DNA of 64,000 nucleotides from Corynebacterium urealyticum (GTDB lineage Bacteria > Actinomycetota > Actinomycetes > Mycobacteriales > Mycobacteriaceae). Below the pieces are notes generated by a model. It did not search any database and was not told the DNA's origin. It saw nothing but the letters and a program-made list of their open reading frames with translations. Where the stretch lies: the NCBI GenBank assembly GCA_020741275.1, contig DYZK01000007.1:1-64000 (forward strand), given 5' to 3'. Position 1 is the stretch's first letter. Each line of letters starts with the position of its first letter. Below are positions 54,457-58,717 of this stretch, piece after piece. Both the position numbers and the translations under genes were made by a program.

Positions 54457-55056
54457 TTAGCGGCGGTGCAGCAGCGCTGCGGCAGAGCACAGCGCGTTAG
54501 CGATCGAGGTATCGCGATCCGCACCGAAGCCGACGGCCCAGGTCCGCTTCCCGTTGTGGGTGGCGAAGATGAAGGTCGCGGTGGCTTCGAAGATCTCGTA
54601 CTGGTGGAACTTCAGGATCTCCACGGCCAGGTCGTGATCAGCCAGGATCTCGGACATCGCGGAGGATGCGCCCATCGCGGTGATGGACACCCGGGTGCCC
54701 TGCTGGTCGGTGCGCAGGCCTCGGATGCTGATCTCGTACTGGCGCTTGCCCGCAGACTTCCGCTGGGAGCGCAGCTGCTCCACCTGGATGTCGTTGGGGG
54801 AGTAGGAGCTCCGGAAGGTCTTCCAGTCCATGCCGCGGGCCTCGCCGCGCATCGCCTTGGGCAGTCGCTGCCCGAAGCGGGAGCGGAATGGGTCCTCGGC
54901 GAAGGTGCGGGTGCGCTGGCGGCGCTTCTGGATGCGCGTCTGGGTTTGCGCGTTGAAGGTGATGGAGTTGGAGCGCAGCGCCGGGGTGGTGGTGTAGCTC
55001 TTGTGCTCTCGGCGGCTGGTCTCCGGCTTCGCGAAGCGAATCAGCGTGGTGCTCAT
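54457..55056 (-). CDS. stand-alone protein resembling the linker plus allosteric/dimerisation domain of 2-isopropylmalate synthase (no catalytic barrel)
   Basis: RSRFGQRLPKAMRGEA...MDWKTFRSSY linker-like; VSITAMGASSAMSEILADHDLAVEILKFHQYEIFEATATFIFATHNGKRTWAVGFGADRDTSIANALCSAAAL resembles the LeuA regulatory domain. Confidence 0.6.
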   Translation of the reverse strand: MSTTLIRFAKPETSRREHKSYTTTPALRSNSITFNAQTQTRIQKRRQRTRTFAEDPFRSRFGQRLPKAMRGEARGMDWKTFRSSYSPNDIQVEQLRSQRKSAGKRQYEISIRGLRTDQQGTRVSITAMGASSAMSEILADHDLAVEILKFHQYEIFEATATFIFATHNGKRTWAVGFGADRDTSIANALCSAAALLHRR

Positions 55057-55177
55057 GGTCACTCTTCCTCGTTGTGGTCGGTCCTGGTGGCGCTTGGCGG
55101 TTGTGCTTGTGCGCCGGTTGTTCGGTTCATGGACCGACTCTTAAGCGTGTGCGCTTGTTACCCCGGTGGTGGAGGGG

Positions 55178-55237
55178 TCAGTCCGCGCCTCCACCCGGGT
55201 TGGGTACTCGCTTAAGAAGAATTGTGATCATGGGCAT
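55178..55237 (-). CDS. putative 19-aa leader peptide MPMITILLKRVPNPGGGAD
   Basis: ATG preceded by AAAGGGA; Ile/Leu run overlaps one arm of a nested inverted repeat upstream of the LeuA-like gene. Confidence 0.5.
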   Translation of the reverse strand: MPMITILLKRVPNPGGGAD

Positions 55238-55424
55238 GAATATATCCCTTTCTTTTCACCCCCGCGAGTTGTTCAACAGCTTTTAGACCCAAATGGGGGT
55301 GCAACAGGTGGGATTTATCATCCCATAATATGGGACGCGGCCCGGGGTGTGTGCCCACGGACCGCGTTCACTGTTCCTCGCCCTTCCCTTTTATTTGGGA
55401 CGTCGCCAGCCTCACGCCTGGCGC

Positions 55425-57236
55425 TCAGCCCTGCGGGATATGAAACTTCTCCCAGGCCTTCCATCGCGGGGAGGGTTCCAGGAGCTGGCTTTCCTCGCCG
55501 GCCTCGAAGCGCTTGCCGTCGAAGACCTGGATGTGGCGGGCTGGGTCAGTCTCTTCCGCAAAGTTCGACACAGTAGAGCTCGGTGCAGCGGCCTCTGCGG
55601 CGCCCGCCTCACCCCGGTAGCGCTCGAAGCCCGGGTCGAGGTCGTGGAGGAACTTCCGCCAGCGGCGCAGCATGGCCTCGCTGGTGCGGTTCATCTGCTT
55701 CGCGCCACCGAGCGCGAGGGCGAGCTTGCCGCGGCTGGTGTCCACCCGGCGGAACAGCAGTGGCAGGTCGAGGGCGTGGGTCGCGCCCATCCCGCTGAGT
55801 TCCAGGGAGGGGGTGGTCATGTCCAGCCGGTAGAACCACACCTTGCCCGTGGGGTGCTGCTCGGCCAGTAGATAGGCCGGGGCCACGAAGATCGCGTGCC
55901 CGGTGAACTCGCCCACTACGGAGCGACGCTGAACACCCTTGTAGTGCTGGAGGAGTTCCTCGACGTCCGTGCTCACGTGCTCGGCGAGCGTGAGGGTGCG
56001 CGACCACTGGTGCTTGGTGCGCAGTGGTTCCCAGCGCATGAGGCGGTACTCGTCGCGGTTATAGCCCACGAGCAGCGGCAGGTCGCGCTGCGCACCCTTG
56101 GCCAGCGGGTGCTTCGGCAGCAGGTCGCCGTCCACGATGGGGGCGAAGGGTCCGGAGACCCCCGGTGCGTAGCGGAGGTTGTGGGCCACGAGGGTCTCGG
56201 TAATCTCGCCCAGTTCGGTGGCGGTGGCGCCGAAGAGGTCATCGATGCTGAGGCCACCGGTCTCGGGCACCTCTGCCTTGGCTTTGTCCTTCTCGACGAG
56301 CCCCCGGATCCGGGCGAGTTCCGCCACGGCCTGCTCGCGCCAGTACTTGGCGTTCTCCGGGGTATGCACCATGGCGCCCGCGGGGGACTGCGCGATGGCG
56401 CCGGCGATCACGCCCTCCAGGGCAGGGCTGGTCATCAGCGCGGTAACCATCGCACCTCCGGAGGACTCGCCGAAGATGGTGATGCGCTCCGGGTCCCCGC
56501 CGAAGGCGCGGGCATTGGCCTGGATCCATCTCAGAGCCTCGATGATGTCGGAGAGCCCGGCGTTGGTGTCGATGCGCTCGTCGGCGAAGTCCTTGCCGAA
56601 GAAGAGCTGGCCGAACATGCCGAGCCGGTAATTCACGCCCACGTAGATGGAGTCAGTGGCCTGGGCGAAGTGCTCGCCGGAACGCTGCGGATCGGCCGCG
56701 GAGCCGTGGACGTTGCTGCCGCCGTGCAGGTGAACCGCGATCGGGCGGCGCGCCGTGGCGTCGATCGCGTGCTCCTTATTAATAGGGGCTGTTGCGGGGT
56801 CCGCGGCCGTGGTGTTGTCCACATCAGCAGCCGTGTCAGCGCCCTGTGTTGTGCCCCGTGCCGTACCACGGGGCACAACGACGCTCAGCCACAGGCAGTC
56901 CTCGGAGCCGATCCAACCGGTGGCCTTGTTGCGGAATTGGTAGCAGTATTCGCCATCCGCGCGGGCCTCGAAGGTGCCCTCCCAAGGTGCGATGGGCTCG
57001 GCGCGGCGGAAGCGGCGGGGTCCAATGGGTGGCTGGGCGTAGGGGATGCCACGGAAGGCTGCGGTGCCGGTTTCCGCGTGCCCCTTGACCGCGCCGGTGG
57101 TGGTCTGGACGGTCCAGAAGTCACCGGGCGCGGGGGAGCGCTGTGCTGCGCCCGCCTGTCCAGCGCCGTCTTTCTTTTCAGCACCACCCGCGTTCGCGGG
57201 CGCCTTCTTCGCGCCGCCTGCAACCGATTCCGCCAT
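55425..57236 (-). CDS. type-B carboxylesterase
   Basis: FRGIPYAQPPIGPRRFRRAEP, EDCLWLSVVVP, ITIFGESSGGAMV. Confidence 0.9.
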   Translation of the reverse strand: MAESVAGGAKKAPANAGGAEKKDGAGQAGAAQRSPAPGDFWTVQTTTGAVKGHAETGTAAFRGIPYAQPPIGPRRFRRAEPIAPWEGTFEARADGEYCYQFRNKATGWIGSEDCLWLSVVVPRGTARGTTQGADTAADVDNTTAADPATAPINKEHAIDATARRPIAVHLHGGSNVHGSAADPQRSGEHFAQATDSIYVGVNYRLGMFGQLFFGKDFADERIDTNAGLSDIIEALRWIQANARAFGGDPERITIFGESSGGAMVTALMTSPALEGVIAGAIAQSPAGAMVHTPENAKYWREQAVAELARIRGLVEKDKAKAEVPETGGLSIDDLFGATATELGEITETLVAHNLRYAPGVSGPFAPIVDGDLLPKHPLAKGAQRDLPLLVGYNRDEYRLMRWEPLRTKHQWSRTLTLAEHVSTDVEELLQHYKGVQRRSVVGEFTGHAIFVAPAYLLAEQHPTGKVWFYRLDMTTPSLELSGMGATHALDLPLLFRRVDTSRGKLALALGGAKQMNRTSEAMLRRWRKFLHDLDPGFERYRGEAGAAEAAAPSSTVSNFAEETDPARHIQVFDGKRFEAGEESQLLEPSPRWKAWEKFHIPQG

Positions 57237-57240
57237 CGCG

Positions 57241-58653
57241 CTAGTTCACCTCAGCGGCCGTGCGGGCCAGGAAGAGCAGCTGTGCCGCACCGACGGAGTG
57301 GATCTCGGTCGGGTCCACGGACTCGTCGGCGGAGTGGATGCGGGCCTGCGGCTCAGCCAGGCCGTAGAGGGCCAGCTCCGCACCCGGGTGGGTAGCAAGC
57401 AGCTTATTGGTCAGCGGGATAGAACCGCCGGAGGCGACCTCCGCGATCTCCATGTGCTCCTTGCCAGCAGCCGCGGCGTAGGAGTCCCCCAGTGCGCCAG
57501 CCAGGCGCTGCAGAGCCGGGCCGGTCAGGTCGGCGCTGAAGGGCTCGGCCAGGGACTCGCGCTCGATGCTCATCTTGGCGTTCGGGGCGTGCTTCTCCAG
57601 GTGGGCGACCAGCAGGTCCTGGCACTCCTTCGGCTCCATTCCCGGCGGCACGCGCAGGCTCACCACGGCCGCGGACTCAGCCGGCACGGCGTTCACTGCA
57701 TCCTTGACCGGCAGGGCGTCGATGGCGGTGACGGTAATTGCCGGGCGTGCGACGGTGAGGTCGTTGGGCTTCAAGCCCTGATCGGCGCCGTAGACGTCCA
57801 CGCCGTCCAGCACGCCGGCGTCGCGGCGGAAGGTGGGCTCGTCCGGGCCCACGCCCTCCCAGGTGGTGCTCGGTGCCAGGCCTTCGACGGCGACCAGGCC
57901 CTTCTCATTGTGCAGGGTGCTGAGCAGCTTGATCAGCTCAACGGTCGCGTCCGGGGCGGCACCGCCGAACTGGCCGGAGTGCAGCGGCTGCTCCAGGGTC
58001 TGCAGGCGGACGGTGACCGCCGCGGAGCCGCGCAGGGCGGTGCATAGGCTCGGCACTCCCACGGAGTCGTTGCCAGAGTCTGCGATGAGGAACACGTCCG
58101 CGGCCAAGAGCTCCGGACGCTCGGCCAGCAGGTTCTCCAGGCCGTAGCCGCCGCGCTCCTCGGAGCCCTCCACGACGACCCGGATGCCGACCTTGTTCAG
58201 AACCGGGTACTGCTCAGCGAGCTCGTTGAGGGCGCGCAGGGTGCCCAGGTGCATGCTCACCGAGCCCTTGCAGTCCGCGGTGCCGCGGCCGTACCAGCGG
58301 CCGTCGCGCTCGGTCAGCGTCCACGGGTCGGAGGTCCAGGCATCGACGTTGCCGGCTGGCTGGACGTCGAAGTGGCTGTACAGCAGGACGGTGGGGTAGC
58401 CGTCCTCCGGCTCCCGGAGACCGATGACGGACTTCGATCCGTCGGAGGTGGGGTAGGCCTCGACGGGAACCCCGACCTCGCGGAACTGGCGGACCACCCA
58501 GTCCGCGGCGCCGTCGTTGTGCTCGTCGAGCTCAGGGACGGAGTGGATGGACTGGAAAGCGATGAGTTCGGTCAGCGCGTCCTTAATAAAAGGCAGTTGT
58601 GCCTCGAGGGCCGCGCGGGCCTCGTTCGGGGTAGGAATTGCGTTATTTGTCAT
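57241..58653 (-). CDS. M20 family metallopeptidase (dipeptidase)
   Basis: VLLYSHFDVQPAGNVDAWTSDPWTLTERDGRWYGRGTADCKGSVSMHL, VEGSEERGGYGLENLL. Confidence 0.9.
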   Translation of the reverse strand: MTNNAIPTPNEARAALEAQLPFIKDALTELIAFQSIHSVPELDEHNDGAADWVVRQFREVGVPVEAYPTSDGSKSVIGLREPEDGYPTVLLYSHFDVQPAGNVDAWTSDPWTLTERDGRWYGRGTADCKGSVSMHLGTLRALNELAEQYPVLNKVGIRVVVEGSEERGGYGLENLLAERPELLAADVFLIADSGNDSVGVPSLCTALRGSAAVTVRLQTLEQPLHSGQFGGAAPDATVELIKLLSTLHNEKGLVAVEGLAPSTTWEGVGPDEPTFRRDAGVLDGVDVYGADQGLKPNDLTVARPAITVTAIDALPVKDAVNAVPAESAAVVSLRVPPGMEPKECQDLLVAHLEKHAPNAKMSIERESLAEPFSADLTGPALQRLAGALGDSYAAAAGKEHMEIAEVASGGSIPLTNKLLATHPGAELALYGLAEPQARIHSADESVDPTEIHSVGAAQLLFLARTAAEVN

Positions 58654-58690
58654 GGGATCCAGGGTAACGCTTTTTCCGAAAGTTGCGGAC

Positions 58691-58717
58691 CTTGCACTCA
58701 AGGGGTGCGAGTGCTAA
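58691..58717. promoter_or_regulatory. CIRCE element 1 (HrcA operator)
   Basis: cttGCACTC-N9-GAGTGCtaa. Confidence 0.85.

Follow-up and report, generated by a model that had tools for sequence, protein, structure and literature searches.

A putative catalysis-free LeuA paralog of Mycobacteriaceae behind a leuA-type leader with valine-rich codons

What is a protein resembling only the regulatory end of 2-isopropylmalate synthase (LeuA) doing on its own, behind a leader peptide gene of its own? The question is raised by a 199-aa ORF on the minus strand (54457..55056; 201 aa if translation began instead at the GTG of position 55062) of the window analyzed here, a 64,000-nucleotide stretch of Corynebacterium urealyticum DNA. 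A preliminary description had proposed that it encodes a LeuA-derived, leucine-sensing protein devoid of catalysis, with a LeuA-like linker and no TIM barrel. The ORF indeed holds only the C-terminal part of LeuA, the catalytic TIM barrel being absent. Taken as a single sequence, the window protein fell below the Pfam cut-off for PF08502, the model expected from that description, and among 30 family members one alone matched it (E 0.054), short of the gathering score. The single window protein did match the NCBIfam 2-isopropylmalate synthase model (positions 426-548, E 1.5e-4). Consistent with this, an AlphaFold model built from 30 orthologs (pLDDT 94, pTM 0.89) adopted the fold of the LeuA regulatory domain, with M. 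tuberculosis LeuA providing the top PDB matches in Foldseek, the leucine-bound form first (3FIG, E 8e-8, query TM 0.74), followed by the regulatory domain of citramalate synthase. Profile-profile comparison with hhalign aligned 139 columns colinearly with LeuA, part of linker subdomain II included, at a probability of 98.4 and an E value of 1e-14 that applies to a single comparison. The relation to LeuA is thus drawn from the NCBIfam match, the profile-profile comparison and the fold together. The conserved core of the protein (54460..54897, minus strand), as delineated by ortholog alignment, model and profile-profile comparison, corresponds to part of linker subdomain II plus the regulatory domain, and 17 columns are invariant in the alignment of 30 stand-alone proteins. 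Judging from these comparisons and the predicted structure, the protein is the linker and allosteric domain of LeuA minus the TIM barrel, in line with the origin first proposed for it.

A search with the single protein had suggested a gene restricted to Corynebacterium, a view ruled out by a family-wide profile search, which returned matches in 364 of 401 genomes, spread over 27 of 30 genera (183 of 199 genomes in one large genus), a few weak ones among them being LeuA. Outside the family, a sample of the order yielded weak matches only, in frames of LeuA length. Within Corynebacterium the profile matched 158 of 242 genomes, a handful of them through LeuA only, leaving about 150 true copies; about a third of the genomes lack the gene. 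LeuA itself was found in 239 of the 242, and the stand-alone gene is kept alongside LeuA rather than as its replacement. In a phylogenetic tree, LeuA and the stand-alone copies split with 100/100 support on a long branch, a topology which, given long branches and a midpoint root, is compatible with one old duplication. Among individual copies, one locus (L309, genome G315) displays a LEU-type leader before a shortened, 144-aa stand-alone copy that matches the profile weakly, and in genome G043 the match is split.

The stand-alone gene is monocistronic and its neighbors vary between the genera inspected, such that no functional hint comes from its neighborhood outside Corynebacterium. In C. gallinarum (L122), a relative of C. 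glutamicum, it lies immediately after an M20 peptidase gene. With M20 peptidase as the annotation of C. glutamicum cg3021 and mrpE as that of cg3027 (PMC6218589), the C. glutamicum counterpart is probably cg3022, which another study lists as SigB-dependent and as encoding a conserved hypothetical protein (PMC1779776). In the window, a carboxylesterase gene (55425-57236) separates the M20 dipeptidase gene (57241-58701) from the stand-alone gene; in the other Corynebacterium loci read, the dipeptidase gene is followed by the stand-alone gene with nothing between them.

An unlisted leader ORF reading MPMITILL... had been pointed out upstream of the gene. That ORF proved real and conserved, nearly all Corynebacterium loci having a short Ile/Leu/Val-rich ORF upstream of the gene, although its start had to be moved to the second ATG (55231): a putative -10 box, TATATT (55239..55244, minus strand), lies 13 nt before this codon, a spacing found in most orthologous leaders, from which the leader is probably leaderless and encodes MITILLKRVPNPGGGAD up to its stop codon (55178..55231, minus strand). 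Outside Corynebacterium the leader usually reads MKR-I/V/L-LVV-x-RRSGV or MPRRLVVATRSGV, each running to the stop codon. The codons likely to act as sensors differ from those of leuA. Leaders of leuA carry a Leu-rich run, with LLL in 27 of 29, whereas the non-Corynebacterium stand-alone leaders all contain Val, mostly as Leu-Val-Val (VV in 49/54), and the Corynebacterium ones contain Val in 57/57, preceded by Ile and Leu. Leader-peptide control tied to branched-chain aminoacyl-tRNAs, as first suggested, is supported at the sequence level, with Leu-Val-Val or Ile/Leu/Val as candidate sensor codons. In one genus with 6-9 Mb genomes (L192, L193, L246, L247, L249-L251) the leaders reach an unusual length (43-44 aa); the spacing from the Val codons to the stop is unchanged. 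One Corynebacterium clade (L006, L058, L061) has kept the gene and lost both leader and A/B pair (see below), a GGCACCC..GGGTGCC hairpin standing in the place of the leader. At L021, strand B and the Shine-Dalgarno (SD) sequence are present and no leader ORF was found upstream of the gene.

For the leader RNA of the window (55231-55054) the predicted folding energy is -63.6 kcal/mol; all 200 dinucleotide-shuffled versions folded less well, and the native value lies 4.9 SD below theirs. Both stems noticed at the outset are located where they had been placed on the minus strand. The outer stem, S1, pairs TCTTAAGCG (55209..55217), which lies over the Leu-Leu-Lys-Arg codons, with CGCTTAAGA (55139..55147), and the nested hairpin pairs GGTGGAGG (55188..55195) with CCTCCACC (55168..55175), the leader stop codon (55180-55178) falling in its loop. 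The outer stem was 91% paired and covarying, with 0/500 shuffles as good, in a clade subset of 13 sequences picked because the stem is present there; genus-wide in Corynebacterium it was 56% paired and conservation was not found. As a general feature of these leaders it was rejected in favor of a clade-specific one.

The most conserved pairings are two others that the preliminary description had not included, both centered on strand B, GTCGGTCC (55131..55138, minus strand). B pairs either with strand A, GGACTGAC (55177..55184, minus strand), which overlaps the leader stop codon, to form a pseudoknot, or with strand C, GGACCGAC (55077..55084, minus strand), before the start codon of the gene. 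Strand C is the SD itself in most orthologs; in the window it lies just upstream of the stretch that, from its sequence, is the probable SD, GAGGAAGAG (55062..55070, minus strand). Across 41 Corynebacterium leaders, A:B was paired in 98.5% of cells (0/500 shuffles as good; no more than 52% in slid controls), five of its eight pairs having changed on both sides, and 96% of cells were paired in 30 leaders from other genera. The duplex of B with the SD region averaged -11.9 kcal/mol at 54 Corynebacterium loci (-7.8 after shuffling) and -12.6 kcal/mol at 53 loci from other genera (-7.5 after shuffling), passing the 5% level in about half to two thirds of the species. The predicted default fold of the window leader has both the outer stem and B:C formed. 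To all appearances, A:B versus B:SD is the anatomy of a translational attenuator, and it is found throughout the family, beyond Corynebacterium. A covariance model of the element (R1) detected it in 136 of 242 Corynebacterium genomes, once in each with one exception, and adjoining the stand-alone gene in the cases compared. In Rfam scans, every match of the window scored far below the gathering cut-off, and the ten orthologous loci scanned yielded one tRNA and one TPP riboswitch, nothing relevant.

The A/B/SD plan is that of leuA's own leader. A second covariance model (R2), built from 30 non-Corynebacterium stand-alone leaders, picked up the leuA leaders in three genomes (E 9e-10, 3e-9 and 1.5e-8) and, at E values of 1e-4 to 1e-2, those of Corynebacterium (1.4e-3 for the leuA of the window organism), with nothing else below E 0.3 in 101 kb. 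Over 111 family genomes, 102 had R2 matches, mostly two each, and all 19 secondary matches read (19/19) stand before leuA. R2 gives no score to the diverged stand-alone leader of the window itself, whose tie to the LEU element therefore rests on gene orthology and on the shared A/B/SD plan. The leuA leader of the window organism had also been considered as a plain terminator; comparison shows a LEU-type A/B plan. The leuA leaders recognized by R2 are the LEU elements of Seliverstov et al. (2005, PMC1262725), a study that reported them upstream of leuA and, apart from that, in a single transposase gene. Because a covariance model of stand-alone leaders recognizes leuA leaders, the gene appears to descend from an old duplication of leuA and, on this comparative evidence, to have kept the leader and the regulatory half and lost catalysis. 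One genus (L291, L292, L295, L297) carries a second leuA paralog, also under a LEU-type leader.

Homology, fold, conservation of the leader, the A:B and B:SD pairings and the difference in codons are all established by comparison. Going further, we infer ribosome stalling, the direction of control, LeuA as the target and its braking. The reading that we prefer, at a probability of roughly 0.5, is that of an ancient leuA paralog governed by a ribosome-mediated translational attenuator and acting in trans on LeuA, more probably as a brake. This paralog would have lost the catalytic barrel, retaining a leader RNA of leuA type together with the C-terminal half made of linker and allosteric domain. 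A ribosome stalled at the Val/Leu/Ile codons would leave A free to hold B, opening the SD so that the protein is made, while a ribosome reaching the leader stop would cover A and let B sequester the SD; the protein would thus appear when charged Val/Leu/Ile-tRNA is short. It would then most likely join the dimeric regulatory domain of LeuA, in keeping with the heteromer first put forward as a possibility, and, as a brake, spare 2-ketoisovalerate for valine. A valine-triggered brake is favored since LeuA draws on 2-ketoisovalerate, the precursor of valine, and since valine falls in M. abscessus when a desensitized LeuA overproduces leucine (PMC11057210). Counted against this explanation are the position of C upstream of the SD in the window, the loss of the leader in the one Corynebacterium clade, B:SD pairing that is not significant in every species, the Corynebacterium genomes without the gene, and reported mutations of the leuA leader codons in Streptomyces whose effects did not fit classical attenuation (PMC1262725).

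The leucine pocket bears on what the protein may do instead. Of the residues defining it in LeuA (PMC2704214), GxGNGP, Tyr554 and the loop over the pocket were constant in 28 LeuA sequences. In the stand-alone proteins GxGNGP is gone, Tyr554 is replaced by Phe in 124 of 135, residues 563-565 are missing in all, and a new FHQ motif occupies the former pocket in nearly all. With the pocket residues largely lost, canonical leucine binding appears unlikely, and the label of leucine sensor, which also sits poorly with Val-rich codons unlike the Leu-Leu-Leu of leuA, is not supported. The FHQ motif, the strong divergence from LeuA and the monocistronic setting with changing neighbors would all suit a free sensor or regulator, responding to or acting on valine, isoleucine, a keto acid, another branched-chain enzyme or RNA and unrelated to LeuA activity; we find this rather doubtful, as both the leader ancestry shared with leuA and the conservation of the linker segment suggest that the protein is connected with LeuA. 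A pocket-dead regulatory domain inserted into LeuA dimers under the same leader logic might instead desensitize LeuA, keeping it active during branched-chain amino acid starvation. In favor of this, the leucine pocket sits at the dimer interface (PMC11057210) and has degenerated in the stand-alone protein, but the sensor codons are Val-rich and more flux through LeuA under valine shortage would drain the precursor of valine, making desensitization unlikely. Less plausible again is that the same amino-acid signal works through transcription attenuation or mRNA decay rather than SD sequestration: the leuA and ilvB leaders of this group have often been labeled transcription attenuators (PMC4046766, PMC13236596), yet no U-tract follows the structure in the window, and B:SD pairing extends across genera. 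A decaying, functionless leuA fragment, for which the missing, shortened (G315) and split (G043) copies could be cited, is highly improbable in view of the invariant columns, the compensatory RNA changes and the retention across the family.

In the mostly open-access literature searched, we found no paper describing the stand-alone protein or its leader; the leader peptides mentioned in RNA-seq work on C. glutamicum are limited to those of trpE, leuA, ilvB and aroF (PMC4046766, PMC3890552). In the leader, a known element recurs as a variant in front of a new gene; the protein, as far as that literature shows, is an undescribed catalysis-free LeuA paralog. Together they point to a so far undescribed regulator of the balance between leucine and valine, made from the control half of a leucine-making enzyme. 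Tentatively, and with less confidence than the preferred reading, we propose that Mycobacteriaceae have a dedicated valine-triggered, trans-acting LeuA regulator, an anti-enzyme that would set the leucine/valine split at 2-ketoisovalerate and would have arisen by duplication of leuA, deletion of catalysis and recoding of the leader from Leu to Val. The pathway leading to leucine in mycobacteria and corynebacteria is of interest both to drug development, as a target, and to industry. With LLL in one of two homologous leaders and LVV in the other, nature itself offers a direct test of which amino acid such control responds to, and the protein would illustrate how the allosteric domain of an enzyme turns into a separate regulator.

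Compared with known systems, the leader shares with the LEU element before leuA (PMC1262725) a leader ORF, a structured region including the stop codon and a pseudoknot. It differs in standing upstream of a leuA-derived stand-alone paralog rather than of leuA, in having Leu-Val-Val or Ile/Leu/Val in place of a leucine-codon run, and in its pairings: the base stem of the LEU element joins leucine codons and SD, whereas here the codon arm has its partner immediately before B, a clade-specific pairing, and the SD pairs with B. The ilvB/ilvBNC leader peptides of Corynebacterium and Mycobacterium (LVVI-type; PMC5784534, PMC13236596) are likewise leaderless short ORFs with Leu/Val/Ile codons, but end in terminators before ilvB, in contrast to the A/B/SD switch described here. 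On the protein side, PF08502 and M. tuberculosis LeuA (3FIG) share the fold and the colinear linker segment plus domain; unlike LeuA, the stand-alone protein has no catalytic domain, falls below the Pfam cut-off and has lost the leucine-pocket signature. IlvN/IlvH and HisZ are non-catalytic proteins that regulate the first enzyme of an amino-acid pathway. The likeness to them, including HisZ as a separate regulatory subunit (PMC9734150), is one of analogy: here LeuA retains an allosteric domain of its own, and its interaction with the stand-alone protein is putative.
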